DNA of 48,514 bases from a virus. A model generated the notes under the pieces. The model saw nothing but the letters and a program-made list of their open reading frames with translations. It did not search any database and was not told where the DNA came from. Location of the stretch: positions 1-48,514 of IMG/VR virus record IMGVR_UViG_3300006754_000004; one strand, written 5' to 3'. A program made the position numbers and the translations under genes. Of the stretch, positions 13,634 to 31,812 are shown piece by piece (positions within the stretch are counted from its first letter, which is position 1; every line of letters starts with the position of its first letter).

Positions 13634-13649
13634 CGAAGCTCGACGGGAT

Positions 13650-13756: not shown

Positions 13757-13774
13757 TGCTATATTCCACTCATG
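13757..13774 (+). promoter_or_regulatory. Early operon promoter with ATG at the predicted transcription start
   Basis: TGC-TATATT (13757-13765) is an extended -10 element; the -35 region is poor. An ATG at 13772 begins 7 nt after the -10 box, about where transcription should start. It is in frame with the SD-led ATG at 13808 and would encode MSNLTTTTKGNK ahead of it. The same geometry recurs at five other promoters in this genome. Confidence 0.65.
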
Positions 13775-13807
13775 AGCAATTTAACGACAACAACGAAAGG
13801 CAACAAA

Positions 13808-13996
13808 ATGAGCAATCGAACTCCCGAAAAAATCATTGAAGACATCCACCGCTGCGAAGACTTTATCAGCGAAGTAGGCGCAGAGGCGCGAAACGAAGCA
13901 GTCTTATACGGTGACGCAGTTCCTCAATCTGGATACCAAACAGCAATACACGCACTGACCAAATTAGAAGCAGAACTAAAGGAGGCAACAAAATGA
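13808..13996 (+). CDS. Small hypothetical protein, first gene of the early operon
   Basis: The product has 62 residues from the ATG at 13808, which has the phage's standard block GAAAGGCAACAAA in front. An in-frame ATG at 13772 would add 12 residues. The protein is helical and acidic (PEKIIEDIHRCEDFISEVG, LTKLEAELKEATK). No family is recognised. The gene overlaps the next as ATGA, and its last codons form the SD sequence of that gene. Confidence 0.68.
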   Translation: MSNRTPEKIIEDIHRCEDFISEVGAEARNEAVLYGDAVPQSGYQTAIHALTKLEAELKEATK

Positions 13997-14352
13997 GCAA
14001 CGAGACAATCAACACAAACGAAAAGATGGTCGACGCGGTACTACGCGACATATGGAAGAAACGCGCTTGTTTCGCCAGTCGCCTGTCGGCGGGTTACAGT
14101 GTCGCGGTTCGAGTGACTCACGCCGAAGCCCCGTTTAACGCGTTGAACATCAACGCAAAAATGAACGGGCGAAACCTCAAGGTTTTACATGAGGGAAGCA
14201 TTATTGGCGCGTTGTCCGGTTGGGGGGCCGCGCCGAAATCAAAGAAGTACAAGCAAGCGGGAAGCGAAGTCGTCTTGGCGACGGTCCAAGTCGAAGACTT
14301 GAAAACAGAGATTAAGTGGAATCTAAACCAAAAACGAAAGGCAACAAAATGA
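13993..14352 (+). CDS. Hypothetical early protein
   Basis: The product has 119 residues, starting MSNETINTNEK. A strong SD (AAGGAGG) is embedded in the end of the preceding gene. The body looks mixed alpha/beta (YSVAVRVTHAEAPFNALNI, EVVLATVQVEDLKTEIKW) with a basic C-terminus. No family is recognised. Its stop overlaps the next start as ATGA. Confidence 0.7.
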   Translation: MSNETINTNEKMVDAVLRDIWKKRACFASRLSAGYSVAVRVTHAEAPFNALNINAKMNGRNLKVLHEGSIIGALSGWGAAPKSKKYKQAGSEVVLATVQVEDLKTEIKWNLNQKRKATK

Positions 14353-14534
14353 GTAACGAGACAAGTAACACAAACGAAAAGGCAGTCGACAATAGGCTTC
14401 CCCTGACAAACGCCGGTAACGCGCAAGGTTGCACTTGCTCTGCGCCGACAAGTAACCGCTACACTTTGAAGGATCGCGGCGACGGAGAAGTCGCACCGCA
14501 TTGCAGCGGTTGCGGCGAGGAGTTGGAGCTATGA
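14349..14534 (+). CDS. Small putative zinc-ribbon protein
   Basis: The product has 61 residues and begins MSNETSNTNEK, nearly the same as the previous protein's first residues, which suggests local duplication of gene starts. The C-terminal part has CTCSAPTSNRY followed by HCSGCGEEL: a CxC and a CxxC pair that could bind one zinc. The function is unknown. It is coupled by ATGA to both neighbours. Confidence 0.62.
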   Translation: MSNETSNTNEKAVDNRLPLTNAGNAQGCTCSAPTSNRYTLKDRGDGEVAPHCSGCGEELEL

Positions 14535-14965
14535 ACGACCCAACAACGAAAATTCAATTAATCTGGAAGAAGATCGAAGCCGGTTGCTATCGCGCGACCT
14601 CGCCAGAGGGCGCGCTTATTCAGGTTGCCAAGTATCCCGGCAACTACGCACCGGGCGGGCGACCTTTCTATTGGGCGGTCACGCTTTGGGACACCGAGGA
14701 CGTAACGAACTTGACCTTCAAAGATCGCGCCGAAGAAATCATACAAGCCGACGGCGTTTATCAGGGAACACTACTCGAAGCCAAAGACTACGCCGAAGAC
14801 CTTTTAACTTGGGCGCAGAACGAAACGGTTAAATCGGAAGCATTCGAAGCGAGCGTTTATCCGAGATTCTTCTTGCCCGGCGAGTACGACGTCGCGACAG
14901 GTCGACCGGCGGCGGAAGTTTACGAATTTAACGGCGATCGAATCGTCGCGAAGGGGGAAAAATGA
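14531..14965 (+). CDS. Hypothetical early protein
   Basis: The product has 144 residues. The ATG at 14531 overlaps the previous TGA. The sequence has YWAVTLWDTEDVTNLTF and a helix with AKDYAEDLLTWAQNE, then FFLPGEYDVATGRPAAEVYEF. I recognise no family. The AKDYAEDLL segment resembles small phage proteins with a trailing helix, but this is not enough for a name. Confidence 0.68.
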   Translation: MNDPTTKIQLIWKKIEAGCYRATSPEGALIQVAKYPGNYAPGGRPFYWAVTLWDTEDVTNLTFKDRAEEIIQADGVYQGTLLEAKDYAEDLLTWAQNETVKSEAFEASVYPRFFLPGEYDVATGRPAAEVYEFNGDRIVAKGEK

Positions 14966-15093
14966 AACTTGCAACGTTAACCAACATCGCCCGCGAATTG
15001 CTCGCGGTCGTTTTTGTCGCGGCAGTCTTTGCCGCAATTCTCGCGGTCGATACGGTTCGGCTCGATCGCATTTTTACGGAGTGGATTAAATGA
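14962..15093 (+). CDS. Small single-pass membrane protein
   Basis: The product has 43 residues. It begins MKLATLTNIARE, followed by a hydrophobic stretch (LLAVVFVAAVFAAILAV, residues about 14-30) and a charged C-terminus ending FTEWIK. GGGGGAAAA lies directly upstream of the ATG and both ends overlap neighbours as ATGA, which supports translation. It is probably an inner-membrane protein of unknown role. A lysis-inhibition or superinfection role is possible but unsupported. Confidence 0.65.
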   Translation: MKLATLTNIARELLAVVFVAAVFAAILAVDTVRLDRIFTEWIK

Positions 15094-15398
15094 GCAAAGG
15101 CAAACTAACAGCGGCGGTAAAAGATCGACGCGCGACGCGCGTCAACATTGCGCGCGCCGCGCAACTAATGGATATGAAGTATTCGTCTATCCGCGAAGCG
15201 ATGGATCGCGGGTACATCCGGGCGACCGTTCGCTATGAAGGGTCAAACGGGCGAACGGGTCGGCTTACAACAATTGGCGACTTGGAAGACTTTCGACTTG
15301 TGCTAATCGAACGTTACTCCGCGTACAACAGCGAACACCACGCCGCGAAAGTCGAGTCGCTTCAATCTATCGGCGACCTTTCGGACATTGCAACATGA
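15090..15398 (+). CDS. Putative helix-turn-helix DNA-binding protein
   Basis: The product has 102 residues. Residues about 17-45 (TRVNIARAAQLMDMKYSSIR, EAMDRGYI) fit a MerR/excisionase-like helix-turn-helix, followed by a wing-like basic segment (VRYEGSNGRTGRLTTI). It could regulate the early operon or bind the origin. The assignment rests on pattern only. It is coupled by ATGA to the small membrane protein and to the nuclease gene downstream. Confidence 0.58.
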   Translation: MSKGKLTAAVKDRRATRVNIARAAQLMDMKYSSIREAMDRGYIRATVRYEGSNGRTGRLTTIGDLEDFRLVLIERYSAYNSEHHAAKVESLQSIGDLSDIAT

Positions 15399-16603
15399 GC
15401 AACAAAACGAAAGCAACAGGCGATACGAATCTCGACCGCGCCCGCGCGGCGGGGTTCGAGATTGTGACCTATTCTTCCCTGTCCCGGTTCAGGAATTGCC
15501 GTCGAAAGTTCAAGCTCGGCTACGTTGACGGACTCAAGCCGAAAGCGAAGAGCGACGCGTTGTGGATTGGAACGATTTTTCACAACGCGATCGAGGCGCA
15601 TTATAAGCGCGGCGAAATTGACGTCGACCGTTTCTTAACCGAAGAGCAAGGTTTAACGCTCGACGACGAAACTCGCGGAACGTTTGAGTTGTTGCGCGCA
15701 ATGTTGCGCGGCTACTTTGCGCGTTGGGGTACGTCGAAAAGCGACAAGCCCGTCGGCGTTGATCCTCGCGGGATGATTCGCGACGACGAACTTGAATATC
15801 TCTACGTCGAACCGACATTCGTTCACAAAATCCGCAATCCGGAGACGGGCGCGAAGTCGCGTTCGTTCATCCTGTCCGGCAAGATCGACGGACTCGTTCA
15901 TTTGAAAGGAACGAACGAGCTTTACATAAAGGAAAACAAGACGGCGGCGACGATCGACGGCGCATATCTTGAGCGGCTATGGTCCGATTTCCAGTCGATG
16001 CTATACGCGCGATACATCGACGACATCGTTTCGGACGGTTTCGGAATGAGAGTCGTCGGCGTTCTGTACGACATAACCGAAAAGACGCGCATTCGTCGCA
16101 AGGCGGGCGAGACTGTCGACAAGTTCGAGGAACGACTCGGTCGTTACAAGACCGAAAAAACGATCGAGAAGCACCGCGAAGCGGGACCGAAGCCCGCCGA
16201 AACTTGGGAAGCGTTTCGCGAGCGCATGAAACGCGAGTACGAAAACCCGGACAAGATGCACCGCGAGTTAATACGCTTCGACGAGCAACGGCTCGCGGAC
16301 ATCGACGGCGAGGTTTGGGAAATGACGCAACAAATACTCGACGCGCGTCGACGCGACAGGTGGTCGATGAACACTTCGCAATGCTATTCGTTCGGCTTCG
16401 GCTGTTCGTTCGTCCCGATTTGCCGCGCGGGCGGAGTCCTCGACGAGATAACAGCGAACGACTTCGAGGTTCGAGTTCCATTCGAAGAACTCGACGACGT
16501 AGACTTCGACTTCGAGTCGAACGGAATGATTTTTCAGCCGACCGAAAAAAAGGTCGCTTCGACTATTGACACCGGCGACGAATCGCCTACCCTTCCTTTC
16601 TAA
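15395..16603 (+). CDS. PD-(D/E)XK exonuclease, Cas4/RecB-like with iron-sulfur cysteines
   Basis: The product has 402 residues. The nuclease core shows D165 in SGKIDGL and E180-x-K182 in IKENK, followed by a QxxxY-type motif in FQSMLYARY. One cysteine near the N-terminus (C35 in FRNCRRK) and three near the C-terminus (C330, C337, C343 in the CYSFGFGCSFVPIC segment) match the four-cysteine iron-sulfur arrangement of Cas4 and AddB-type nucleases. It probably works as a DNA exonuclease with the Sak4-like ATPase and SSB-like protein encoded next to it, to produce or process recombination ends. There is no sign of a CRISPR locus, so a recombination role is preferred over spacer acquisition. Confidence 0.88.
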   Translation: MSNKTKATGDTNLDRARAAGFEIVTYSSLSRFRNCRRKFKLGYVDGLKPKAKSDALWIGTIFHNAIEAHYKRGEIDVDRFLTEEQGLTLDDETRGTFELLRAMLRGYFARWGTSKSDKPVGVDPRGMIRDDELEYLYVEPTFVHKIRNPETGAKSRSFILSGKIDGLVHLKGTNELYIKENKTAATIDGAYLERLWSDFQSMLYARYIDDIVSDGFGMRVVGVLYDITEKTRIRRKAGETVDKFEERLGRYKTEKTIEKHREAGPKPAETWEAFRERMKREYENPDKMHRELIRFDEQRLADIDGEVWEMTQQILDARRRDRWSMNTSQCYSFGFGCSFVPICRAGGVLDEITANDFEVRVPFEELDDVDFDFESNGMIFQPTEKKVASTIDTGDESPTLPF

Positions 16604-16630
16604 CCTTTTCCATTTTTTGGAGTTCAAGAC

Positions 16631-17461
16631 ATGACAACGAAAGCAACGCAAACGAAACCGGCGGAAGCGACGCCGACAACAACGGCGAAGCCGGTAGGCG
16701 TTTTACCGACCGCCTCGACACCGCCGAAGCGAAGGATCGAAGACCTTTCGATTCTTCTTTACGGCGCGCCCAAGATCGGGAAGTCGTCGTTCGCGGCGCA
16801 GTTCCCCGACGCACTCTTCCTACCAACCGAACCCGGCTTAAACTCGCTCGACGTTTTCCAAGCCCCGGCCGACGGGACAGGCGTTAAAGACTGGCCGGAG
16901 CTTTCCCGCATTTATTCGGAAGTCGCGCGCGGCGGACACGGCTTCAAAACAACAGTTATCGACACAATCGGCAACGCCTACGAATTTGCAGCGGCGCACG
17001 TTTGCGGCGCGCGCAACGTTGAATACGCGGGCGACCTCGCGCACGGTAAAGGTTGGGGATTGATTAAAGCGGAGTTTAAGCGGCTGATTACGGCGGCGGC
17101 AAAACTTCCATTCGGTTTAATCATGATCGCTCACGCGACAAACGACAAAATCGAGCAAGGTGGTAGCGAGATAATCAAAACGCGTCCGACCTTGTCGAAC
17201 GCTTGTCGCGAAGTGCTTTTGGGTCTTTGCGATATGATTTTGTTTTTCGACGTCGAGAAAGTTAACGACGACAACGGAAACGTTCGGTTCGATCGCGTTT
17301 TACGCACGAAGCCGAACGCAAACTTTGAAGCGGGCGATCGCTCGGGAACACTCCCGGCGGTTATCCGTGTACCTAACGGCGCGTCGATGAGTGGCCCGGA
17401 ACACTCCCGCGCCTTATTTAACGAGTTCCGGAAAGCCTACGAAAGCGGTGTAAAAAAATGA
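16631..17461 (+). CDS. Sak4-like RecA-fold ATPase / recombinase
   Basis: The product has 276 residues. The Walker A loop is GAPKIGKSS (45-53) and the likely Walker B strand is TTVIDTIG near residue 115. ILLYGAPKIGKSSFAAQFPD and GLIMIAHATNDK are typical of the AAA_24 / Sak4 family of phage single-strand annealing ATPases. It probably promotes recombination or annealing together with the SSB-like protein encoded immediately downstream (ATGA overlap). The N-terminal 35 residues are a T/P-rich disordered tail. GGAG lies 9 nt upstream of the start. Confidence 0.88.
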   Translation: MTTKATQTKPAEATPTTTAKPVGVLPTASTPPKRRIEDLSILLYGAPKIGKSSFAAQFPDALFLPTEPGLNSLDVFQAPADGTGVKDWPELSRIYSEVARGGHGFKTTVIDTIGNAYEFAAAHVCGARNVEYAGDLAHGKGWGLIKAEFKRLITAAAKLPFGLIMIAHATNDKIEQGGSEIIKTRPTLSNACREVLLGLCDMILFFDVEKVNDDNGNVRFDRVLRTKPNANFEAGDRSGTLPAVIRVPNGASMSGPEHSRALFNEFRKAYESGVKK

Positions 17462-17988
17462 ACGACAACAACGGCGATTATTACGGCGATGTTCTGGCAG
17501 AAATGGACGACGCGTTCGCGAACGCGCCCGCTCCCGACGGCGGAGTAACCGAAGTTCCCGACGGCGATTATCAGGTCGTCGTAAAAGAAGCATTCTTGGC
17601 GACTTCGCAAACATCGGGCAACCATTTACTAAAATGGAAACTTAAGGTTATCGGTCCGCGCCATCGTGGCGCGACACTGTGGCGCAATAACGTTATCGCG
17701 CGCGATAAGATGCAATGGTTAAAGAAAGACCTCGCGGTTGCGCGGCTCAATCTCGAAAGCCTGTCGGAGCTTGAAACGCGCGTCGAAGAATTGAAGGGCG
17801 TTGTTATGGACGTTCGCGTTCAAAAGAACGGCGACTTTCTTAACGTATGGCTTAACCGTTTCGTAAAGGTCGACCCGAACGCCGATCTTTCCGACGCGGC
17901 TCAAAGTGGCTTCGCTTCGCCAGTTGTTAACGACGTCGGCGCAACAACACCGCAAGCACCAATTGACGAAGAAGGGGTTCCGTTCTAA
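17458..17988 (+). CDS. DUF669 single-stranded-DNA-binding-like protein
   Basis: The product has 176 residues. The core (VPDGDYQVVVKEAFLA, GNHLLKWKLKVIGP, RGATLWRNNVI) matches DUF669, a phage family thought to have an OB fold and to replace SSB. The C-terminus ends EEGVPF, an acidic-hydrophobic tip like the SSB tail (DDDIPF in E. coli) that recruits replication proteins. It follows the Sak4-like gene, a common pairing in phages. The link to host proteins through the tail is inference. Confidence 0.85.
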   Translation: MNDNNGDYYGDVLAEMDDAFANAPAPDGGVTEVPDGDYQVVVKEAFLATSQTSGNHLLKWKLKVIGPRHRGATLWRNNVIARDKMQWLKKDLAVARLNLESLSELETRVEELKGVVMDVRVQKNGDFLNVWLNRFVKVDPNADLSDAAQSGFASPVVNDVGATTPQAPIDEEGVPF

Positions 17989-18001
17989 AATCTATCGGTT
18001 T

Positions 18002-18067
18002 GGCGTCGCGCGCGTTTTTTGCTTTCAACAGCAGTTTCCTACTATTCCATCCCTCGCGCGCGACGCC
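18002..18067. repeat. 13-bp perfect inverted repeat in the leader of the ERCC4 nuclease gene
   Basis: GGCGTCGCGCGCG (18002-18014) pairs with CGCGCGCGACGCC (18055-18067) over a 40-nt loop that contains T6 directly after the left arm. The right arm ends 10 nt before the ATG at 18078, where there is no Shine-Dalgarno sequence. The structure may control translation of the nuclease or act as a processing site. Confidence 0.65.
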
Positions 18068-18077
18068 TCTTTCTCTT

Positions 18078-18587
18078 ATGCCAAAACGCGAAACAATTCG
18101 ATTGATTGTCGACACTCGCGAAAAGCGACCTTGGGTTTTTTCGCCGATCGTGACAACGCGACGCGCGAAGCTCGAATCGGGCGACTACTCAATTGAAGGT
18201 TTCGAAGATCGAGTCGCGGTCGAGCGGAAGACGAAAGACGACTTCGTTTCGTCGATTTGTTCCGGGCGATCGCGATTCAATCGAGAGCTTCGTCGACTGC
18301 AAGCGTTCGAGTTTGCGGCGGTCATTGTTGAAGCGGAATTACCCGACTTGTTGTCGGGGAACTATACAAGTGGAATGTCCGCGCGCGCTGTTCTTGCGAC
18401 AACGGCGGCGATCACGGTAGAACGCGGCATTCCTGTTTTCTTTGCGAGCCATAGAGCGGCGGCGGCGATACTCGCCGAAGCGTTCTTCGCTCGCTTCATA
18501 ACTAAAAACGAAAGAACGAAAGGGCGAGCAAATGCAACGGCAGAAACAAAGACGCGCACCGCGCGAAAGGAAGACCGGCCCGGTTGA
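18078..18587 (+). CDS. ERCC4/XPF-type nuclease
   Basis: The product has 169 residues. It begins MPKRETIRLIVDTREKRPW. The XPF-family motif is complete: D12, D36 in SGDYSIEG and E49-R-K-T-K-D-D55, matching ERKxxxD, so it should be an active structure-specific or single-strand-junction nuclease. The ATG at 18078 begins the conserved domain; a TTG at 18000 is in frame but has no support. It sits in the recombination operon and overlaps the helicase gene by 56 nt. It may process recombination or replication intermediates. Confidence 0.85.
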   Translation: MPKRETIRLIVDTREKRPWVFSPIVTTRRAKLESGDYSIEGFEDRVAVERKTKDDFVSSICSGRSRFNRELRRLQAFEFAAVIVEAELPDLLSGNYTSGMSARAVLATTAAITVERGIPVFFASHRAAAAILAEAFFARFITKNERTKGRANATAETKTRTARKEDRPG

Positions 18588-20805
18588 AGCGACCGGTCGG
18601 GTAACGCGAATTTACTATTCGTCCGACTCATTTTCGGCGGGCGTGTTAACCGCCGACGACGGCACCGACTACAAATTCGCGGCAAAGGGCGAACTCGAAA
18701 CAGGCGACCGCGTAACGCTCTCGGGCGAGTGGAAGTATCACGCGAAATACGGCTCGCAAATTGACGGCGCGACTTTCTTGTTTGATACCAAGCCAACAAC
18801 CGAAGGGCTTGTCGCCTACCTGTCGAAGAGCGATCGGTTTAAGGGTGTCGGTCCATCGCGCGCGGCGGCTCTTGTTAACTCGATCCTCGCGTTAGGTGAC
18901 TTCGAAACTATTGTCGTGAACACCGACCCGGCAGAAATCGCCGAACGCGCGGGCGTTCCCGTTGCAGTCGTTGAAACACTCCGCGACGAATGGACAACGC
19001 AAGCGGGGACGAATGGGATCATGGCCGAGCTTGCCGGTTTCGGCGTGACACCGGCAGCGGCGAAGAAGTTGTTCGACAGGTTCGGCGGCTCGGTTGTAAA
19101 AACGATTCAGCGTAACCCGTACTTTCTTGTCGGTCGGATTCGAGGGTACGGCTTTAAGCGTGTCGATGAAATCGCGCTCCGGGCGGGCATGACGAAAAAC
19201 GATTCGAGTCGCATAGCGGCGGGCGTTGTTCACGTTTTGCGCGAGGCGCGCGACAATGGCGGACATACATTCACGGCGGCGAAGCCGTTCGTTCGCGCCG
19301 CTCTTGAGTTGCTCGCGCTCGACACAATAGACTGTCGCGAACGCGTCGAAGCGGCAATCGGCGACGCGGTCGAGGGCGGCGATATTCGCGCGGCGGAAAT
19401 CAACGGCGAACACCTGTTCGGCTTGCCTGAACTGTGGCAAGCCGAAGAGGTTGTTCAGGGCGCGATTAAAGCAAACGCGCAAGGCGCGGGCGCATTCTCC
19501 GAGCAATCGCCTGAGAGTCTCGCAAAGCTCGCTCTCGACGCGTGTTCGACCTTGAACGACGGACAAGTCGCGGCGGTCGTTGGCGCGCTCTCTAACCGCC
19601 TGTCGGTGATTACAGGCGGCGCGGGATCGGGAAAAACGTTTCTCGTCGGTGCAATCTGCGACCTGTTCGAATCTCACAACGACGCAACCGTCGCGCTTGC
19701 CGCGCCTACCGGCAAGGCGGCGAACCGCTTAATCGAATCCGTCGGGCGAAAGGCGACGACGATTCACGTTTTACTCGACCCGAAGCCGCAAACCGTCGAC
19801 GGCGAAGTCGTCTTTAACTTCGCGAAAAACGAAGAAGACAAGATCGACGCCGACCTCTTGATCGTCGACGAAGTTTCCATGGTCGACGTTCTTTTATTCT
19901 CGTCGCTATTGCTCGCGGTCGATTGGAACCGAACGACGGTCGTTCTTGTCGGCGATCACAACCAACTGCCGCCGGTAGGCGCGGGCGCGGTTCTTCGCGA
20001 CCTTATCTCGGGCGACCTCGCGCCGGTCGCGCGGTTAACTGAAATTCACCGCAACGCCGGAACGCTCGAACGCAAAATTAACAACGTGTTGTCTGGCGTC
20101 GTCGAGGCGTCCGTTCCTCGCGACTCGGGTTCGATTGAGATTCCGCCTTGGACCATACTTCCGAAATACAAAGACAAAGACGAAGCGGCTACGTTTATCG
20201 CGCGCCTGTTCCGCGAACATTTGGAAAAGTTCACGCGCGCGGACGGGTCGCCAGTTGATCCGATATGGGGCGTACAACTGTTAACCGCGATGCACAACGG
20301 ACCGGTCGGAACGAAAGCGTTAAACTTTGCGCTTCAAACGATCGCGGCGGAGCGCGACGGACGACCGGCACCGATTGCAAATCCGAAGACCGGGATCGCC
20401 CCGATTCAAACAGGCGACAAAATCATTCAGACGAAGAACGATTACAAAATCGGAGTTATGAACGGAACAGTCGGACGGGTCGTTTCAAAAAGTGTAGACT
20501 CTCAAGACATGACGATTGATTTCGACGGAATCGGAGTCGTCGAGCTGTCCGGCTCGGCGGCGAGTAACGTCCAACTCGCCTACGCGTTAACCGTTCATAA
20601 GTCGCAAGGGTCGGAATACCCGATCGTCGTATATGTTTGTCACAAATCACAGTCAATAATGTTGCATCGAGGATTATTTTATACTGCCGTCTCGCGCGCC
20701 CGCGAAGCGGTTGTCGTCGTCGGGGATTCGTGGGGAATCCGAACTTGCGCGAAGCGGATTCGAACGGATAAGCGACGAACGTTGCTTTCGTTGTCGTCGA
20801 AATAG
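18532..20805 (+). CDS. RecD2-like superfamily 1B DNA helicase
   Basis: The product has 757 residues. The N-terminal 90 residues resemble the OB domain of RecD2 (VTRIYYSSDSFSAGVLTADD). Helix-hairpin-helix segments follow (FKGVGPSRAAALV, GYGFKRVDEIALRAGM). Walker A is GGAGSGKT (362-369), Walker B is LIVDEVSMVD (D446, E447), then GDHNQLPPVGAG and a C-terminal UvrD-C2 motif AYALTVHKSQGSEYP. This is a 5'-3' helicase likely to serve recombination or fork repair. GAAAGGG lies 7-8 nt before the ATG, which supports this start despite the overlap with the ERCC4 gene. Confidence 0.93.
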   Translation: MQRQKQRRAPRERKTGPVEATGRVTRIYYSSDSFSAGVLTADDGTDYKFAAKGELETGDRVTLSGEWKYHAKYGSQIDGATFLFDTKPTTEGLVAYLSKSDRFKGVGPSRAAALVNSILALGDFETIVVNTDPAEIAERAGVPVAVVETLRDEWTTQAGTNGIMAELAGFGVTPAAAKKLFDRFGGSVVKTIQRNPYFLVGRIRGYGFKRVDEIALRAGMTKNDSSRIAAGVVHVLREARDNGGHTFTAAKPFVRAALELLALDTIDCRERVEAAIGDAVEGGDIRAAEINGEHLFGLPELWQAEEVVQGAIKANAQGAGAFSEQSPESLAKLALDACSTLNDGQVAAVVGALSNRLSVITGGAGSGKTFLVGAICDLFESHNDATVALAAPTGKAANRLIESVGRKATTIHVLLDPKPQTVDGEVVFNFAKNEEDKIDADLLIVDEVSMVDVLLFSSLLLAVDWNRTTVVLVGDHNQLPPVGAGAVLRDLISGDLAPVARLTEIHRNAGTLERKINNVLSGVVEASVPRDSGSIEIPPWTILPKYKDKDEAATFIARLFREHLEKFTRADGSPVDPIWGVQLLTAMHNGPVGTKALNFALQTIAAERDGRPAPIANPKTGIAPIQTGDKIIQTKNDYKIGVMNGTVGRVVSKSVDSQDMTIDFDGIGVVELSGSAASNVQLAYALTVHKSQGSEYPIVVYVCHKSQSIMLHRGLFYTAVSRAREAVVVVGDSWGIRTCAKRIRTDKRRTLLSLSSK

Positions 20806-20820
20806 CAGAGAAAAGGGAAC

Positions 20821-24231: not shown

Positions 24232-24246
24232 ACGAAAGGTTCTAAT

Positions 24247-24941: not shown

Positions 24942-25068
24942 TCGCGCAAGCCTCGACAGGACGTCGAGCGGACCTCGACGTTGCCCCCTGTTGCGCGTTC
25001 GGGCGTTTCGGGCGCGGTATATCGGGTTGGAAAAGAAAACGATTCAGGGCGAACCTCGGCGTTCTGCT

Positions 25069-25411: not shown

Positions 25412-25450
25412 CGCGCTTGGGTTTATTTTGCGTTCGGGCGGATTTTCTTC

Positions 25451-25487
25451 TTGACGATAGGCAAAATGAGCCTATAGTCAGGCCATG
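25451..25487 (+). promoter_or_regulatory. Cassette promoter 1 with start-site ATG
   Basis: TTGACG (25451-25456), a 16-bp spacer and TATAGT (25473-25478). An ATG at 25485, 7 nt after the -10 box, is in frame with the SD-led ATG at 25530 and would add 15 residues (MSKTVNNATATKGNE). It has the best -35 box of the family together with the promoter at 27008, and it fires away from the iteron region. Confidence 0.8.
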
Positions 25488-25529
25488 AGTAAGACAGTAA
25501 ACAACGCAACCGCAACGAAAGGCAACGAA

Positions 25530-25730
25530 ATGAGCAACGCAACAACAGCAAAAGACATCCAAGAAATCATCGACGGAGCAAAGAAGTTCCTCGAAGCGAA
25601 CAAGGACACGGACCCGAACCATAGGGACCTCGATAGTGGATTTTCAATGGACGTTCTACTCATAGCGCACAGGGATGTGATTGAGCGAATGGAAGCCAGA
25701 CTTGCCGACCTTTACAACGAACGAAACTAA
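25530..25730 (+). CDS. Small hypothetical protein, cassette 1 gene 1
   Basis: The product has 66 residues from the ATG at 25530, preceded by the block AACGAAAGGCAACGAA. It is helical (DIQEIIDGAKKFLEANK) and ends MEARLADLYNERN. The last motif and 21 nt of its DNA recur in the gene at 26207 (LADLYNER). No family is recognised. The upstream in-frame ATG at 25485 may be used as a leaderless start. Confidence 0.66.
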   Translation: MSNATTAKDIQEIIDGAKKFLEANKDTDPNHRDLDSGFSMDVLLIAHRDVIERMEARLADLYNERN

Positions 25731-25772
25731 ACCAAAACGAAACGCGCCGACAGGCGCAAGAAAGGCAACGAA

Positions 25773-26108
25773 ATGACAAACGAGAGCAAAAAAATGAATG
25801 ACAGGGAAACAATGGGCGTCGTTCTTGAAAAGGGCGTCGATCGCTTTTGGGGCGGTAGAGTTCTCGACATGCTCACATACATCGCATGCCGAGGAAATGG
25901 ACACTTCCAGCCTACAAAGCAACCGGTTCGTTTCGTCGGCGTATCCGTTCGCAATGGCAAGTCGTGGCCGATGCGCGGATTAAATGGCCCGTCGTCGGTG
26001 GTGGTCGAGGATGAAGAGGGTCGTCGTTGGAAGCTCGAATTATCAAAGGGCGACAGCGGTAATTTCCAAGTTCGCGAAATGCTCGCAACAGGTAGCCGCA
26101 TATCATAG
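25773..26108 (+). CDS. Hypothetical protein, cassette 1 gene 2
   Basis: The product has 111 residues starting MTNESKKMNDRE, after the block GAAAGGCAACGAA. A small hairpin GCGCC-GACA-GGCGC (25744-25757) lies in the short spacer before it. The C-terminal half looks beta-rich (RFVGVSVRNGKSW, SVVVEDEEGRRWKLEL). No family is recognised. The first twin-hairpin element starts 8 nt after its stop. Confidence 0.66.
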   Translation: MTNESKKMNDRETMGVVLEKGVDRFWGGRVLDMLTYIACRGNGHFQPTKQPVRFVGVSVRNGKSWPMRGLNGPSSVVVEDEEGRRWKLELSKGDSGNFQVREMLATGSRIS

Positions 26109-26115
26109 GACCGAG

Positions 26116-26172
26116 GGAAGGCGCGAGCCTTCCCCGCTCTTCGATCGCCATTCATTCGAATGACGATCGAAG
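26116..26172 (+). other. Twin-hairpin intergenic element, copy 1
   Basis: Hairpin A is a perfect 8-bp stem GGGAAGGC / GCCTTCCC closed by a GCGA tetraloop of GNRA type (26116-26135). Hairpin B is CTTCGATCG (26140-26148) paired with CGATCGAAG (26164-26172), with a smaller inner stem. No T tract follows, and the next gene's start block comes about 25 nt later. This argues for an RNA structure inside the operon rather than a terminator. Two relatives lie at 30236 and 31819. Confidence 0.75.
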
Positions 26173-26206
26173 ATCGAGCAACTAAACCAAAACGAAAGGC
26201 AACGAA

Positions 26207-26566
26207 ATGAACGACCCGAAGACAATCGACGTAACGCCAACATGGTCCGGCATACTCCCGGCACTACTTGCCATAGTCGCAAACGGTGAAACCTTCGAAG
26301 CGCGCAAGGAAGCACAAGAGCAACTCGCACAAATGGCAAAACTCGCCGACCTTTACAACGAACGACTCGAAGACGCCGACGAAATGCGCGACGCGCTGTT
26401 GGTCGTCAATACTTCCCCGGCGATTCGCGATTGGCTTGTCGATAATGACTTGCAATGTTTGAAGCAAGTAAACGCCGCGCTCGGTTGTTCCGATTCGCAT
26501 TTGAAAAAGCTCGAAGCGGAAAAGTTAGAACGCATGTCCGAGCAACTGGAGGCAAAAACGAAATGA
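26207..26566 (+). CDS. Hypothetical protein, cassette 1 gene 3
   Basis: The product has 119 residues. The N-terminal half, with TPTWSGILPALLAIVANGET and a following EAQEQLAQMAKLADLYNER, resembles a small helical protein seen in many phages with no assigned role. The C-terminal half is charged helix (SHLKKLEAEKLERMSEQLEA). LADLYNER is shared with the 25530 protein, a likely local duplication. The start block is AACGAAAGGCAACGAA. Its stop overlaps the next ATG. Confidence 0.7.
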   Translation: MNDPKTIDVTPTWSGILPALLAIVANGETFEARKEAQEQLAQMAKLADLYNERLEDADEMRDALLVVNTSPAIRDWLVDNDLQCLKQVNAALGCSDSHLKKLEAEKLERMSEQLEAKTK

Positions 26567-26922
26567 ACTTCGACGAAGCACTAACGACCGCCGCAACAGG
26601 CGGCGGTCGCCTTGTCCCGTCGCACGACGACGCCATTCTCGCCGAAGCAATCTTCGCCGTCGCCGTTACTCTTTCAGAACACGAAGTCGCGTTGTCGACA
26701 GGCGCAATCGGGATCGAGTACGGCGCGCCAGTGGACGCGGTTCGCAATGTCCGGGCGATGATCGACGCGCGACTTCTCCGCGCGTTACCAATGCCCGACG
26801 ATTCGCCCGGCAATCGCGCGACGTTGACGAGCGAGGGTCGCAACTGGTTAGCGACGTTTCAATCGTTGGACGGAGTGAAACGGCTTCAGGGCATCGCGGA
26901 CGAGCGGTCGTCGGCGGAATAA
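26563..26922 (+). CDS. Putative winged-helix protein, cassette 1 gene 4
   Basis: The product has 119 residues from the ATG at 26563 (ATGA overlap; GGAGGCAAAAACGAA upstream). Residues about 45-100 (STGAIGIEYGAPVDAVRNVR, AMIDARLLRALP, then RATLTSEGRNWLATF) look like a winged helix: helix, helix, then two strands with a TLTSEG turn as in MarR-type proteins. It could be a transcription regulator of the cassettes. The evidence is pattern only. Confidence 0.62.
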   Translation: MNFDEALTTAATGGGRLVPSHDDAILAEAIFAVAVTLSEHEVALSTGAIGIEYGAPVDAVRNVRAMIDARLLRALPMPDDSPGNRATLTSEGRNWLATFQSLDGVKRLQGIADERSSAE

Positions 26923-26940
26923 GTGAAAATTCTTTCGTTC

Positions 26941-26983
26941 GAGAGACGTCGTTTACGCGTTGTATTCGGCGTTTCTCTTTTTT
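26941..26983 (+). terminator. Intrinsic terminator ending cassette 1
   Basis: An 11-bp stem (26941-26951 with 26967-26977) includes two G-U pairs and is followed directly by T6 at 26978-26983. It starts 19 nt after the stop of the winged-helix gene and 25 bp before the next promoter. Confidence 0.82.
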
Positions 26984-27007
26984 CTTCTTGAGCGGACTAT
27001 TTTATAG

Positions 27008-27044
27008 TTGACGGGAAGGAATGTTCACCTATATTCATGGTGTG
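27008..27044 (+). promoter_or_regulatory. Cassette promoter 2 with start-site GTG
   Basis: TTGACG (27008-27013), a 16-bp spacer and TATATT (27030-27035). A GTG at 27042, 7 nt after the -10 box, is followed by AGT AAC GCA GTA AAC AAC and stays in frame to the SD-led ATG at 27084, giving 14 extra residues. Confidence 0.8.
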
Positions 27045-27083
27045 AGTAACGCAGTAAACAACACCGCAACGAAAGGCAAAACA

Positions 27084-27302
27084 ATGTACTTCAGCGAAAC
27101 AAACAAAATCGAAACGATCGGCGACTTCAACGTAGTTACTTCTTGGGGCATCGAAGAGGTAAGCGTTCTTCGCAAGGGCGACGTCTACATCGCAACGATG
27201 ATTACCGGGCCGCGTCATTTCACCGTAGTTAATCAGGCCGACGGCGACACCATCGCAAACGCAATGCTCGCCGTCGTGACGAAAGCCGAAGGGACAAACT
27301 AA
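27084..27302 (+). CDS. Small hypothetical protein, cassette 2 gene 1
   Basis: The product has 72 residues from the ATG at 27084 (block AACGAAAGGCAAAACA). The sequence is beta-rich (FNVVTSWGIEEVSVLRKGDV, YIATMITGPRHFTVV). It lacks the usual MSN start of its neighbours. No family is recognised. Confidence 0.66.
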   Translation: MYFSETNKIETIGDFNVVTSWGIEEVSVLRKGDVYIATMITGPRHFTVVNQADGDTIANAMLAVVTKAEGTN

Positions 27303-27304
27303 TC

Positions 27305-27490
27305 ATGCGCGCAACAATTATGAATCACCCGACGACTCTTTTTACAATCGAACAGGCGAACGACTTAGTAATCAAGTTGAACGCGGACGACGAAGAGTGG
27401 ACCTACGTCGCGAAGCACGATCCGACGGGTCGCGGTTTCTCGTTCATCGAAATCACCGACGAAGACGGCTTCGTTCTCGGCAACCTCTAA
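27305..27490 (+). CDS. Small hypothetical protein, cassette 2 gene 2
   Basis: The product has 61 residues. The C-terminal part, EEWTYVAKHDPTGRGFSFIE followed by ITDEDGFVLGNL, has the W-x-Y...D-G...LG pattern of small phage proteins of unknown function. The start is uncertain: the ATG at 27305 has AGGG 12 nt upstream, and an ATG at 27320 is an alternative. Confidence 0.66.
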   Translation: MRATIMNHPTTLFTIEQANDLVIKLNADDEEWTYVAKHDPTGRGFSFIEITDEDGFVLGNL

Positions 27491-27518
27491 ACCTAAACCA
27501 AAAACGAAAGGCAACGAC

Positions 27519-27740
27519 ATGAGCAACAACAGCAACGAACTAAACGCGCTTCTCGAAATCCACGAAATCGCAACCGACATCGCGGAGCAACGCGGGATCG
27601 CGAGCGGCAATCGCGAAGCACTCGCGCGAGCGGCGAAGTCTTACACGGGTTGGCATTCACACTGTGGCGCACTCGGATTCGTCCGGGCAGTTAACGCGCT
27701 CGTCGAATCGACGCGCGAGTTTGAAAGGGCAAGCAAATGA
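27519..27740 (+). CDS. Small hypothetical protein, cassette 2 gene 3
   Basis: The product has 73 residues beginning MSNNSNELNALLEIHE, after the exact block AACGAAAGGCAACGAC. It is mostly helical (EIATDIAEQRGIASGN, GFVRAVNALVESTREFERA). No family is recognised. It overlaps the next gene as ATGA. Confidence 0.68.
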   Translation: MSNNSNELNALLEIHEIATDIAEQRGIASGNREALARAAKSYTGWHSHCGALGFVRAVNALVESTREFERASK

Positions 27741-27973
27741 GCAACAACAGCAACAACAGAAAACCGCGTCGAACTATGGAGCAAATCGCGCGCGATGAAA
27801 TCGCGACAGTGACAACCAAGGCGGGCGAACTCCGCGACGACCTTCTCGATCATCGAGAGACATGCGAACGTTCACGGGCTGGTAAGACTTGCGAGACATG
27901 CGAGGCGATTACATCGTACTTTGTCTCAACGACTGCCGGGTTCGATTACTTGAGCGAAGGCGGCAAATTATGA
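27737..27973 (+). CDS. Small cysteine-containing hypothetical protein, cassette 2 gene 4
   Basis: The product has 78 residues beginning MSNNSNNRKPRRTMEQ, so its first five residues equal those of the previous protein. It carries HRETCERSRAGKTCETCEA, three cysteines and a histidine that could bind zinc. No family is recognised. The start block is degenerate (GAAAGGGCAAGCAA). Confidence 0.65.
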   Translation: MSNNSNNRKPRRTMEQIARDEIATVTTKAGELRDDLLDHRETCERSRAGKTCETCEAITSYFVSTTAGFDYLSEGGKL

Positions 27974-28140
27974 TCTTCGCGGTCACAATCGGCGGGGCCG
28001 TCTTTCAACGGTTCGAAGCGTACGAAGAGGCGGTCGCGTGTTACATCGCCGTAAGGCGCGACTACGGGTCAAGAGCCGACGTTGAACTCGTCGCGCTCGA
28101 TTACGCCGACGCGAAAGGGGTTCGCATGAACGGCCAATAA
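27970..28140 (+). CDS. Small hypothetical protein, cassette 2 gene 5
   Basis: The product has 56 residues from the ATG at 27970, which overlaps the previous TGA. It starts MIFAVTIGGAVFQRFEAYEE and contains a helix AVACYIAVRRDYG and then VELVALDYADAK, a beta-alpha-beta look. The frame is open further upstream but only within the preceding gene. No family is recognised. Confidence 0.62.
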   Translation: MIFAVTIGGAVFQRFEAYEEAVACYIAVRRDYGSRADVELVALDYADAKGVRMNGQ

Positions 28141-28159
28141 TTACTTTCGTTGAATTCGT

Positions 28160-28197
28160 GCGCGGATCGGCGATTTGAGCCGGTTCGCGCTTTATTT
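28160..28197 (+). terminator. Intrinsic terminator ending cassette 2
   Basis: GCGCGGATCGGC (28160-28171) pairs with GCCGGTTCGCGC (28179-28190) with two G-U pairs, followed by TTTATTT. The 21 bases at 28144-28164 are identical to 29656-29676 at the next terminator, so the two control regions are copies of each other. Confidence 0.82.
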
Positions 28198-28219
28198 CGG
28201 GTTTGACAGGAAATTACTC

Positions 28220-28255
28220 TTGTCGGCAGGAAGAATGGACCTATACTCTGTCATG
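28220..28255 (+). promoter_or_regulatory. Cassette promoter 3 with start-site ATG
   Basis: TTGTCG (28220-28225), a 16-bp spacer and TATACT (28242-28247). An ATG at 28253 starts 6 nt after the -10 box and reads in frame through MSNAVNNTTNETKGND to the SD-led ATG at 28301. Just upstream, AGGAAATTACT is a one-mismatch form of the palindrome found at the next two promoters. Confidence 0.8.
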
Positions 28256-28300
28256 AGTAACGCAGTAAACAACACGACAAACGAAACGAAAGGCAACGAC

Positions 28301-28474
28301 ATGAGCAACGATTACGATACACCGAAAAACATCAACGAGTATCTTTTCGCCGAGTGCGTTTCCGACGCGTTGGGCGAGGAATTTTCGATCGAACTTCACT
28401 ACGGTTACATCACCGTTACAGGACCAACCAACCCGACGACCATCATCGAAGACGTTAAGTCTTCGATCGTCTAA
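28301..28474 (+). CDS. Small hypothetical protein, cassette 3 gene 1
   Basis: The product has 57 residues beginning MSNDYDTPKNINEYLF. The remainder (AECVSDALGEEFSIELHYGY, ITVTGPTNPTTIIEDV) looks like helix then strands. No family is recognised. The standard block AACGAAAGGCAACGAC precedes the ATG. Confidence 0.65.
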   Translation: MSNDYDTPKNINEYLFAECVSDALGEEFSIELHYGYITVTGPTNPTTIIEDVKSSIV

Positions 28475-28492
28475 TAAACGAAAGGCAAAGAC

Positions 28493-28975
28493 ATGAGCAA
28501 CAGCAATAACACACCATCGAACGACGTAACCGCCAAGGCGAAAATCATCCGGGCAACAATCAAGAAGCAACTCGGCCACAACGCGAAAGCCGTTAGCGTT
28601 CGAAGCCATCGTTACTCGATGGGATCTTCGATCTATGTAACAGTGAACACCGCCGCCGCCGCAAGAGACGTCGACGCCATTCGGGACATCGCTCAAATCG
28701 GCACGGTCGGTTACAACAGCTTCGTTCAAGTTTCGGTTAGCGATTCGGCGCAAGCCGAACTCGCTACGCCGGAGCTTATCGAAGCCGTCGCAAACGCTCG
28801 CGCAAAGCTCGACCCGACAAAAAAAGAACTCGTTCCCGTCGAAGGGACCGATGTTGCAATCAGTTTCTACTATGGGTTCGACGTAAACGTTTACGTCGAA
28901 GGCGTCGGCTTCGCCGTTCTAATCAGCGGCTACAAAAACGACGCTTACATCGCTTACAAAATCGCTACACTCTAA
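28493..28975 (+). CDS. LPD29-like domain protein, cassette 3 gene 2
   Basis: The product has 160 residues. Residues about 15-75 (AKIIRATIKKQLGHNAKAVS, VRSHRYSMGSSIYVTV, then AIRDIAQIGTVG) fit the LPD29-type polyvalent-protein-associated pattern: a helix, then SVRS..YSMGSSI.V strands. This domain occurs in large phage and conjugative-element proteins of unknown mechanism; here it is nearly free-standing. The C-terminal half repeats strand-rich VAISFYYGFDVNVYVEGVGF. Confidence 0.7.
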   Translation: MSNSNNTPSNDVTAKAKIIRATIKKQLGHNAKAVSVRSHRYSMGSSIYVTVNTAAAARDVDAIRDIAQIGTVGYNSFVQVSVSDSAQAELATPELIEAVANARAKLDPTKKELVPVEGTDVAISFYYGFDVNVYVEGVGFAVLISGYKNDAYIAYKIATL

Positions 28976-29003
28976 ACCAAAACCAAAAACGAAAGGCAAC
29001 ATC

Positions 29004-29645
29004 ATGAGCATTTACATTTACACACTACAGGCGCGCGGACGACAAATAACCTTCCCCGATGGAAGCGAACAGACGGTTTACCCGATGCAATTTCGATCGG
29101 GAAATTGCTTCAGCGAATGGAATTTCAATTCCTACAACTCGGAAACTATCGCAGAACATTACGGCGAGTTGGCTATGAATCGTTGGCACGAACGCGAAGC
29201 GACCAACAAAGGCGCGAAGTACATTCGCCACGGCGACGAAGTCTACGACGTTAGCGATTGCTCGGTCCTCGAATATTCGAGTTGGATCGATACCGACGCG
29301 CTTCCCGGCGAATTTATCGGTACGTTGAAAGGGCGAGTTCTTGAACCGGCGTCGCGTTGGGAATTATACGAAATTCACGCGAACCCTTGCGAGGCGAGGA
29401 AGCGGGATACTGTCGTTTTTACATGCGAAACGCGACTTACCCGCGAGTGGGATGGCACGGCGTCGGTTTACGAATGCCGCATGCGGGCGCTTGACGTTCA
29501 GCCCGGCGTAGTTGTTACGCACTCGCTCTACGTCGGCGACACCGACTCAGGAATCGACTCGGAACGGATCGCGGCGCATTGGGACGGCTTCAAGCGTACG
29601 CAAACCGCCTACGCCGAACGCGCGCATACGACGACGCCAGTTTAA
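29004..29645 (+). CDS. Hypothetical protein, cassette 3 gene 3
   Basis: The product has 213 residues starting MSIYIYTLQARGRQITFPDG. It is rich in W, Y and H, with segments such as WNFNSYNSETIAEHYGELAM and ASRWELYEIHANPCEARKRD. I recognise no family. The start block is AACGAAAGGCAACATC. It ends 26 nt before the terminator stem of this cassette. Confidence 0.7.
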   Translation: MSIYIYTLQARGRQITFPDGSEQTVYPMQFRSGNCFSEWNFNSYNSETIAEHYGELAMNRWHEREATNKGAKYIRHGDEVYDVSDCSVLEYSSWIDTDALPGEFIGTLKGRVLEPASRWELYEIHANPCEARKRDTVVFTCETRLTREWDGTASVYECRMRALDVQPGVVVTHSLYVGDTDSGIDSERIAAHWDGFKRTQTAYAERAHTTTPV

Positions 29646-29671
29646 GCCGAGATTTCTTTCGTTGAATTCGT

Positions 29672-29711
29672 GCGCGAGTCGCTGTTCTAAGGCGGTTCGC
29701 GCTTTTTCTTT
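29672..29711 (+). terminator. Intrinsic terminator ending cassette 3
   Basis: GCGCGAGTCGC (29672-29682) pairs with GCGGTTCGCGC (29692-29702), again with two G-U pairs, followed by TTTTTCTTT. It is a diverged copy of the terminator at 28160. Confidence 0.82.
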
Positions 29712-29731
29712 GCCTGAACAGGAAATTCCTC

Positions 29732-29768
29732 TTGCCAACAGGAAGAATAGACCTATACTCGGGTCATG
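29732..29768 (+). promoter_or_regulatory. Cassette promoter 4 with start-site ATG and upstream palindrome
   Basis: TTGCCA (29732-29737), a 16-bp spacer and TATACT (29754-29759). An ATG at 29766, 7 nt after the -10 box, reads MSNAVNNTTTKGND in frame to the SD-led ATG at 29808. The palindrome AGGAAATTCCT at 29720-29730 abuts the -35 box. Confidence 0.8.
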
Positions 29769-29807
29769 AGTAACGCAGTAAACAACACGACAACGAAAGG
29801 CAACGAC

Positions 29808-30224
29808 ATGAGCAACGCAACAACAAATACGAATCCTTCAAACCAAAACTTCGAAACGGTACGCCTGAACGGCGACGCGGCTTTCTTCGTGAACGCCGCA
29901 ACCGGGCATAACAATTGGCGTCAAATCAATACTACTTCTGAGTCCGTTCTTAATTGGGACGGCGTCAATTCCGGCGACTCAATGTTCGCAATCGAAAGCA
30001 ACGTTTACGAAGGCATTATGGCTTACGTTTCGTTCGAATCCGTTACCGGTCGCATGGCGACAAGAATTCCGAACGAAGACGGCGCGTATGGTTTCCGCGT
30101 TAAGTTGGCGATCGAAGTCGACAACAAACGCCTTTCCCTCTTCGGTTGGATCGCCGTTGCCGGTGGACCTGCAATCACGCGCGCCGAAGTCGACGCAATC
30201 GTCGCCGCCGCGACGATCAAGTAA
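29808..30224 (+). CDS. Hypothetical protein, cassette 4 gene 1
   Basis: The product has 138 residues from the ATG at 29808 (MSNATTNTNPSNQNFETVRL). It is beta-rich with W and F residues (GHNNWRQINTTSESVLNWDG, SLFGWIAVAGG) and ends in a helix EVDAIVAAATIK. No family is recognised. A second twin-hairpin element begins 12 nt after its stop. Confidence 0.7.
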   Translation: MSNATTNTNPSNQNFETVRLNGDAAFFVNAATGHNNWRQINTTSESVLNWDGVNSGDSMFAIESNVYEGIMAYVSFESVTGRMATRIPNEDGAYGFRVKLAIEVDNKRLSLFGWIAVAGGPAITRAEVDAIVAAATIK

Positions 30225-30235
30225 CGGACGGGACC

Positions 30236-30285
30236 GGGGCGAAAGCCCCGCGTTCCTTCATCGCCGCGACAAGCGACGATGAAGG
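30236..30285 (+). other. Twin-hairpin intergenic element, copy 2
   Basis: Hairpin A is GGGGC-GAAA-GCCCC (30236-30249), a GNRA tetraloop. Hairpin B is CCTTCATCG (30255-30263) paired with CGATGAAGG (30277-30285). The stem of B differs from copies 1 and 3, yet both arms changed together, which is covariation. The conserved tail GATCGAAGACCGAGAACGAA follows, partly shared with copy 3. Confidence 0.76.
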
Positions 30286-30334
30286 ATCGAAGACCGAGAA
30301 CGAAAGAAACTAAAACCAAAAGAAAGGCAACAAC

Positions 30335-31315
30335 ATGAGCAACGCAACAGAAACAAAAATGAGCGAAAAGGCAGTTATCAAAAAGATGACCCTGAAGTTC
30401 GCCGAAGACAACGAAGCGGAAAACGCGACCAACCCGGTCCGCGTTATTACGACGCGCAACGGAACGACCGTCGAGTCGCGCTACAGCGATCGGTCGGTAC
30501 AGGCGGCACTTCGTTTTTACGTCAACGCCGAAACTGTTACCTCGAATTTCGCGCGGTCGCTTGCTGACCATTCGTCGCGCGTAGGCGGCGGCGGCTTTTC
30601 GCGGTACAAGGCTTGCGGTTTGTCTCCGGAGCAAACTTGTTGGGCGCATGTCATCGTCGTTCAAACCGAGGCGCGCTTGCTCGAAGAGGTCCGCAAGATT
30701 AAGGCGGCAGTCGCCGAAGTCGTAAGCGAGTTCAAGGCGAACCGAAAGCCGATCGTCGAGCGCCTTCAGGCGGCGCGCGAGTCGGGCGTTAATTATCCGA
30801 AGATTCGTCTGTCGACTGACGACGGCGATAAGGTCGTCTTGAGTCTCGCCGGGTCGGCTTCGCGTAATCCCGGTTCAGTGTCAGTGACGGACGGCGGGCC
30901 ATTCGAGCAAAACGTTTATTACGGTCGCGTCAACGTCGACGGAACATTCGTCGCCGCGCGCGCCTTCAACGACAAAGTCGCCGCTGTTCTCGATGCACTG
31001 GCGGACGACACGGCAACAGCCGCCGCGATTCACGGCAAGCGTACCGGGTCTTGCTCGTTCTGCGGAAGGCATCTTGAGACGACCGAATCAGTGACCGCCG
31101 GATACGGTCCGGTTTGCGCGGAACGCTACGGCTTGCCTTGGGGCAAGGCGGCGGCAGTCGAAGCCGAAGAGACTGTCGAGCAATGCCACGGCGTAGGGCG
31201 CGACTGCTCGAACCCGGCGACGGATACGATTGGCGGCGCGCCGCGTTGCGCCGATTGCTACGAAGAGATTCGTTCGGAAATGGCGGGTTATGAGGATGAT
31301 TTGCGCGCGATGTAA
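30335..31315 (+). CDS. DUF6011-like zinc-ribbon protein, cassette 4 gene 2
   Basis: The product has 326 residues. Residues about 235-270 contain GSCSFCGRHLETTESVTAGY followed by GPVCAERYGL, the pattern of the DUF6011 zinc ribbon found in phage and actinobacterial proteins. A second set of cysteines follows (CHGVGRDCSN, then PRCADCYEE), perhaps another ribbon. The N-terminal 230 residues are unrecognised, with a helical segment VRKIKAAVAEVVSEFKANRK. Nucleic acid binding is plausible but not proven. Confidence 0.75.
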   Translation: MSNATETKMSEKAVIKKMTLKFAEDNEAENATNPVRVITTRNGTTVESRYSDRSVQAALRFYVNAETVTSNFARSLADHSSRVGGGGFSRYKACGLSPEQTCWAHVIVVQTEARLLEEVRKIKAAVAEVVSEFKANRKPIVERLQAARESGVNYPKIRLSTDDGDKVVLSLAGSASRNPGSVSVTDGGPFEQNVYYGRVNVDGTFVAARAFNDKVAAVLDALADDTATAAAIHGKRTGSCSFCGRHLETTESVTAGYGPVCAERYGLPWGKAAAVEAEETVEQCHGVGRDCSNPATDTIGGAPRCADCYEEIRSEMAGYEDDLRAM

Positions 31316-31326
31316 CGCGCCGAACC

Positions 31327-31363
31327 GCGCGCCGCGACCAATCCGTCGCGGCGCGCTTTTTTT
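31327..31363 (+). terminator. Strong intrinsic terminator ending cassette 4
   Basis: A perfect 12-bp stem GCGCGCCGCGAC (31327-31338) / GTCGCGGCGCGC (31345-31356) closes a 6-nt loop and is followed by T7. It is the strongest terminator in the array. Confidence 0.92.
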
Positions 31364-31439
31364 CTAACGCTGAATTCGACGCCTATCGGGCGGTTTGGCG
31401 CGCTTTGCGATTTATCTTTGCCTGAACAGGAAATTCCTC

Positions 31440-31476
31440 TTGTCGACGGGAAGAATACCCCTATACTCAGTTCATG
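31440..31476 (+). promoter_or_regulatory. Cassette promoter 5 with start-site ATG and upstream palindrome
   Basis: TTGTCG (31440-31445), a 16-bp spacer and TATACT (31462-31467). An ATG at 31474, 7 nt after the -10 box, is in frame with the SD-led ATG at 31528 through an 18-residue leader, the longest of the set. The palindrome AGGAAATTCCT overlaps the upstream edge of the -35 box. Confidence 0.8.
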
Positions 31477-31527
31477 AGTAAGACAGTAAACAACACGGCA
31501 ACAACAACAGCCACGAAAGGCAACACC

Positions 31528-31812
31528 ATGAGCAACGCAATAACAACCGTCGAGAAGATCGAAGTCGGAACAAAGATCGTAATCAGCAACGTAACGTATA
31601 CCGTCCACTTCGTGAACACCCCCGCTTACTACCGCTCAGTAGGTAACGACATTAAGGCCGACACAATGGAAGAGAACGATTGCACCGCCGACATTCTTTG
31701 CCATCGTGGCAACGCACACCGGGGCCGGGTTCATATGCTCCGCAGTTTCGATCATGGCGACTACGGCCAAGCCGTCTACCACATAATGACAATCGACGGA
31801 ACTTCTTGGTAA
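31528..31812 (+). CDS. Hypothetical protein, cassette 5 gene 1
   Basis: The product has 94 residues from the ATG at 31528 (MSNAITTVEKIEVGTK). Strand-like segments (IVISNVTYTVHFVNTPAYY, RVHMLRSFDHGDYGQAVYHI) and several H and C residues are seen (CTADILCHRGNAH). No family is recognised. The third twin-hairpin element begins 7 nt after the stop. Confidence 0.67.
   Translation: MSNAITTVEKIEVGTKIVISNVTYTVHFVNTPAYYRSVGNDIKADTMEENDCTADILCHRGNAHRGRVHMLRSFDHGDYGQAVYHIMTIDGTSW

Follow-up and report, generated by a model that had tools for sequence, protein, structure and literature searches.

In Escherichia coli, many of the 5′-terminal AUGs found on Shine-Dalgarno (SD)-led mRNAs bind 70S ribosomes and initiate translation, and some of them affect the downstream gene (Beck, Fleming and Janssen 2016, PMC4965119). 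The 5′-uAUG cases in that study were explicitly picked to be out of frame, avoiding longer isoforms (PMC4965119). Leaderless mRNAs, among them lambda cI and many in Caulobacter (PMC4117421) and mycobacteria (PMC4633059), form a second related group, and CA-rich sequence past the start has been reported to strengthen leaderless translation (PMC9031893). In a third, the cluster K mycobacteriophages, short repeats termed start-associated sequences lie just 5′ of many small-gene starts (PMC3203893).

Here we describe a phage with six early cassettes, each of which pairs a start codon at the predicted +1 with a second, SD-led start. The E. coli mRNAs, whose AUG lies no more than 3 nt from the 5′ end and is followed by an SD-led start, are the closest precedent for this arrangement, which to date has been tested in just a few genes of E. 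coli; the phage 5′ end is a predicted one. Unlike the E. coli genes tested, which had short, out-of-frame uORFs, all six phage starts are in frame and belong to one cassette in one early region, with both transcription start site (TSS) and use predicted. The cassettes resemble leaderless mRNAs in their start at the predicted +1 and their unstructured, CA-rich beginning, and differ from them in having a second, SD-led start in frame. Like the start-associated sequences of cluster K, a short repeat (ACGAAAGGCAAC) precedes many small-gene starts in this phage; its sequence is different, however, and six of its copies come joined to a promoter and a 5′ start. The cluster K SAS/ESAS motif GGGATAGGAGCCC was not found 5′ of starts, and the 17-bp inverted-repeat extension known from cluster K was not established for the cassettes. 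Lambda-type dual-start holin genes have two in-frame starts a few codons apart, neither of them at the RNA 5′ end. The cassettes likewise present two in-frame starts in a phage, with two N-termini predicted; we found nothing that identified their products as holins, as none of the six short-form proteins matched Pfam and none of the three long forms (of six) that were run matched PHROGs.

Genome and early region

The window (IMG/VR record IMGVR_UViG_3300006754_000004) covers 48,514 bp and represents a siphovirus genome in full, with a direct terminal repeat of 123 bp; its ends are crossed by two near-identical metagenome contigs. No near relative turned up in the phage collection that we searched, and the only relatives in IMG/VR were strains approximately 99.95% identical. 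Between the structural genes on either side lies an early region with genes for DNA metabolism, which encodes an exonuclease, a Sak4-like annealing protein, a RecD-like helicase and a primase along with many small genes that have no family matches. The closest bacterial match to the major capsid protein (MCP; 55%) was in an alphaproteobacterium, a match that hints at an alphaproteobacterial host.

Two further features of the genome were noted. QueC-like and QueE-like genes (33364-34026 and 34411-35115), which directly follow a gene with a ParB-like/methyltransferase-associated domain (32552-33271), suggest 7-deazaguanine modification of the phage DNA. Between early genes, hairpins of the form cttcgatcg...cgatcgaag at 26135-26176, ~30260-30290 and 31842-31885 lie just 5′ of promoterless ribosome-binding site (RBS) modules and are possible RNA processing or stabilising elements.

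Cassette anatomy and promoters

Coordinates of the six cassettes are collected in Table 1. The sites, start codons, frames and leader lengths (36, 45, 42, 48, 42 and 54 nt) were as the original prediction had given them, and frame 0 is free of stops throughout. The gap between the −10 hexamer and the start codon, given there as 6-7 nt, is 6 nt in five cassettes but 5 nt at 28253, so that the predicted TSS of this cassette may fall a little off the A, by up to 1-2 nt.

Table 1. Features of the six early cassettes (window coordinates)
Cassette	Feature	Sequence or motif	Position	Strand
1	terminator-like hairpin (intrinsic), 5′ of cassette		13650..13681	+
1	extended −10 promoter, no −35	TGCTATATT	13757..13765	+
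1	start at predicted +1 and 36-nt in-frame leader	MSNLTTTTKGNK	13772..13807	+
1	gene from SD-led start		13808..13996	+
2	promoter	TTGACG-N16-TATAGT	25451..25478	+
2	ATG at predicted +1 and 45-nt leader	MSKTVNNATATKGNE	25485..25529	+
2	gene from SD-led start		25530..25730	+
3	promoter	TTGACG-N16-TATATT	27008..27035	+
3	GTG at predicted +1 and 42-nt leader	VSNAVNNTATKGKT	27042..27083	+
3	gene from SD-led start		27084..27302	+
4	terminator-like hairpin (intrinsic), 5′ of cassette		28160..28190	+
4	promoter	TTGTCG-N16-TATACT	28220..28247	+
4	ATG at predicted +1 and 48-nt leader	MSNAVNNTTNETKGND	28253..28300	+
4	gene from SD-led start		28301..28474	+
5	terminator-like hairpin (intrinsic), 5′ of cassette		29672..29702	+
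5	promoter	TTGCCA-N16-TATACT	29732..29759	+
5	ATG at predicted +1 and 42-nt leader	MSNAVNNTTTKGND	29766..29807	+
5	gene from SD-led start		29808..30224	+
6	strong intrinsic terminator, 5′ of cassette		31327..31356	+
6	promoter	TTGTCG-N16-TATACT	31440..31467	+
6	ATG at predicted +1 and 54-nt leader	MSKTVNNTATTTATKGNT	31474..31527	+
6	gene from SD-led start		31528..31812	+

A blind scan of both strands, requiring at least five of six matches to the −10 plus either a −35 or an extended −10, returned 21 promoter-like sites, six of which had an ATG or GTG 5 to 7 nt past the −10. These six were exactly the sites of the original prediction, and all were in frame, open and SD-led, compared with a mean of 0.015 such sites in 200 dinucleotide-preserving shuffles. 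Five of the promoters are paralogues (TTGNNN-N16-TATANT), while that of cassette 1 is unrelated to them, with an extended −10 (TGCTATATT) and no −35, yet has the same arrangement downstream. The region's strongest promoter (32423-32452, TTGACT-N18-TATAAT) and a TATAAT at 13181 both lack a start codon at +1, indicating that the arrangement marks a family of cassettes rather than all promoters.

Several other elements were seen around these promoters. In cassettes 4-6, a pair of (A)CAGGAA-like direct repeats, spaced by about 22 bp (two helical turns), overlaps the −35 region (28190-28250, 29715-29760 and 31425-31470) and could be an activator or repressor site. At 13181-13260, the TATAAT promoter is followed by a leader (GTGAGTAATCACATGAGC) with two closely spaced in-frame starts, neither of them at the predicted +1, and at 32423-32552 a leader of ~90 nt with a long hairpin separates the best sigma70-like promoter from the ParB-like gene.

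The promoter geometry, with positions taken from the −10 only, places a start codon at the predicted +1 in all six cassettes. Should transcription start elsewhere, the first ATG would be an ordinary internal or upstream triplet, and the −35 boxes, in keeping with this, are modest (9-10 of 12 matches) and the TSSs are predictions. We consider this very improbable, as the spacing from −10 to start codon is equal within 1 nt in all six cassettes, a pyrimidine precedes every start (YR initiator), the hexamers and their 16-nt spacing are conserved, and terminators or terminator-like hairpins lie just upstream of four cassettes (1, 4, 5 and 6).

Evidence for the first start

The sequence at the first start is itself characteristic of start codons. 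ATGAGYAA occurs 21 times on the plus strand, in every case at a start codon (16 gene starts and 5 leader starts) and never inside a gene, and it opens 16 of the 27 early genes versus none of the 20 late genes; the sixth leader start has GTGAGTAA in its place. Among the five paralogous cassettes, mean identity was 0.47 for the 6-nt discriminator and 0.59 for the spacer, compared with 0.95 for RTGAGYAA and 0.89 for the next 15 nt, so that conservation rises exactly at the start codon. The sole start-codon change among the paralogues is from ATG to GTG, again a start codon, although the GTG at 27042 would make leaderless initiation inefficient in hosts resembling E. coli.

Leaders were 74-78% A+C and folded weakly, with z-scores of +0.3 to +2.9 and none of the six more stable than the mean of its own shuffles. 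We rejected RNA hairpin or attenuator leaders on the basis of this lack of structure. Composition and weak folding also speak for a start at the 5′ end, given the reported strengthening of leaderless translation by CA-rich sequence (PMC9031893). Overall, the first ATG is probably a genuine start, or recently was one; the ATGAGYAA signature, the conservation boundary, the blind scan, the shuffles and the comparison with other viruses (below) support the original prediction of a bona fide start at the predicted +1 that is kept in frame.

This evidence also bears on the possibility that the leader is a non-coding device, in which ribosomes are drawn in by the 5′ AUG and the ACA-rich leader, acting as a standby site or an ACA enhancer, and then initiate at the SD-led AUG, with little or no product from the first start and a frame that is inherited or incidental. 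A standby role has been proposed for 5′-terminal AUGs of E. coli (PMC4965119), and ACA motifs 5′ of the SD enhance translation (PMC3879156). The leader's composition, its nucleotide conservation and its lack of structure would suit such a role, as would the A/C-rich tracts on promoterless RBS modules and the (CACCAC)n tract that another phage has seven times ahead of the same SD module. Recruitment by itself, however, leaves unexplained why a sequence otherwise confined to gene starts stands at +1, and why frame 0 is open and a multiple of three in all six cassettes when viral loci generally lack such a bias. We regard this account as unlikely, if still a credible competitor.

Frame of the leaders

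The original prediction had put the odds of six in-frame leaders by chance at about 1 in 700 (1/729). The pattern is indeed non-random by the shuffles above, but that figure counts related copies as independent. Shared ancestry could explain part of the pattern, as had been anticipated, with five of the six cassettes being paralogues. Counted conservatively, the set comprises two promoter lineages, and its five different leader lengths call for at least four length changes, each of them a multiple of three and so frame-preserving. Some of these changes fall within (ACA/CAA)n tracts, in which slippage by triplets would be expected to produce steps of three without selection, whereas the additional 6 nt of the 28253 leader consist of a 5-nt repeat plus one A and are harder to obtain in that way.

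As an outside yardstick, viral contigs were scanned for TATAAT-N6-ATG-N(9-39)-AAGGAG-N7-ATG, which returned at least 120 stretches. Among the matches listed (110 distinct sites), the three phases accounted for 26, 51 and 33 sites, with 26 in phase 0, and 10 of the 110 were both open and in frame. A further eight phage records, totalling ~340 kb, contained 308 promoter-like sites; a start at +1 was present at 24 of these, and none had an in-frame SD start. With no in-frame bias in phages at large, the six of six found here stand out even after discounting shared descent. Selection for frame is thus likely, though not proven, from the sequences compared: the argument of the original prediction that in-frame length changes reflect selection on translation gains from the viral comparison and the 28253 change, but slippage could account for some of the changes.

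A purely historical origin would have a gene start (MSNA...) duplicated beneath a promoter and spread by recombination, leaving the first ATG and its frame as functionless relics, preserved by recent descent and by slippage in triplets. In its favour, several cassettes share ~100-170 bp at 75-86% identity, the leaders begin much as genes do (ATGAGTAACGCA and ATGAGCAACGCA), the downstream proteins are unrelated past their first few residues, so the cassette moved as a unit, and ACA/CAA repeat changes are among the length differences. Shared descent alone, however, does not predict a start block that is 95% identical next to a discriminator and spacer that have drifted to 47% and 59%, and both the different promoter of cassette 1 and the 6-nt difference of the 28253 leader, which is no simple triplet slip, also speak against it. 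We find this origin decidedly doubtful.

We also searched for relatives in which the leaders might have diverged. Scans for the promoter-leader DNA pattern found only the same virus in viral contigs and nothing in bacterial genomes, and a primase search found only near-identical strains, whose variants all fell outside the leaders. Those relatives by portal and MCP (27-55% identity) that were checked lacked the cassette, as did a prophage-like region of alphaproteobacterium BAL199, with an MCP 55% identical. Across the viral contigs, bacterial genomes and portal/MCP relatives checked, no diverged relative with the cassette or with independent leaders was found.

The second start and the downstream proteins

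A separate SD-led start lies downstream in every cassette, as ACGAAAGGCAAC-NNN-ATG in five and ACGAAAGGCAAAACA-ATG in cassette 3. The former is also found ahead of some eight internal genes without a promoter, and thus stands as an RBS module independently of the cassettes. A contig of an otherwise different phage (65% G+C; 11016-14340) has (CACCAC)n-ACGAAAGGCAACGACATG before seven small genes, combining the same SD core with a triplet-repeat tract; the core may be shared between the two phages or convergent.

Past their first few residues the six downstream proteins are unrelated, indicating that the cassette was distributed as a unit and ruling out homology of these proteins as the cause of cassette likeness. 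The original prediction had further proposed that the leader encodes an N-terminal tag. We rejected leader peptides as protein tags since leader conservation extends to the nucleotides, synonymous changes being nearly absent, which argues against selection on the peptide itself. Constraint, or recent spread, appears to have acted on nucleotides and not clearly on the peptide.

Discussion

Our preferred reading, to which we assign a probability of roughly 0.55, is that these are SD-led early mRNAs with a functional 5′-terminal start that is held in frame with the SD-led start, so that both entry routes would lead to the same protein body. Six early transcription units would open with a portable cassette consisting of (usually) a terminator, a host sigma70-type promoter, a start at +1, an unstructured CA-rich leader, an AAAGG SD element and a second start. 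Ribosomes would enter and start at the 5′-terminal AUG or GUG in the leaderless manner, and the SD-led AUG, 36-54 nt further on, would be the conventional start. Ribosomes entering at the 5′ end would make the same protein body with an N-terminal extension of 12-18 residues, and a single open frame would avoid an out-of-frame product that interferes with the second start. The presumed benefit would be more, or more robust, early expression.

Dual initiation, as originally proposed, is therefore retained as the best single reading on the strength of the evidence for the first start, without a functional tag and without its switching with ribosome state, for which we found nothing in support. 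In a more speculative version, which we think unlikely, every early mRNA could be entered by both the 70S/leaderless route at the 5′ AUG and the 30S/SD route in one frame; genes would stay expressed, and the infected cell's translational state would determine the proportions of two N-terminal forms.

As read from sequence, the phage cassettes are an in-frame, repeated and modular version of the E. coli SD-led mRNAs with 5′-uAUGs, and are new in these respects. In-frame 5′-terminal AUGs on SD-led mRNAs were knowingly omitted from the only systematic study that we found, since they would give isoforms. Gene finders would misplace the N-termini of the cassette proteins, or pick one arbitrarily. 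Six copies in one phage genome provide a natural replicate set for asking if a 5′ AUG gives rise to another form of the protein, supplies the SD start with ribosomes, or does both.
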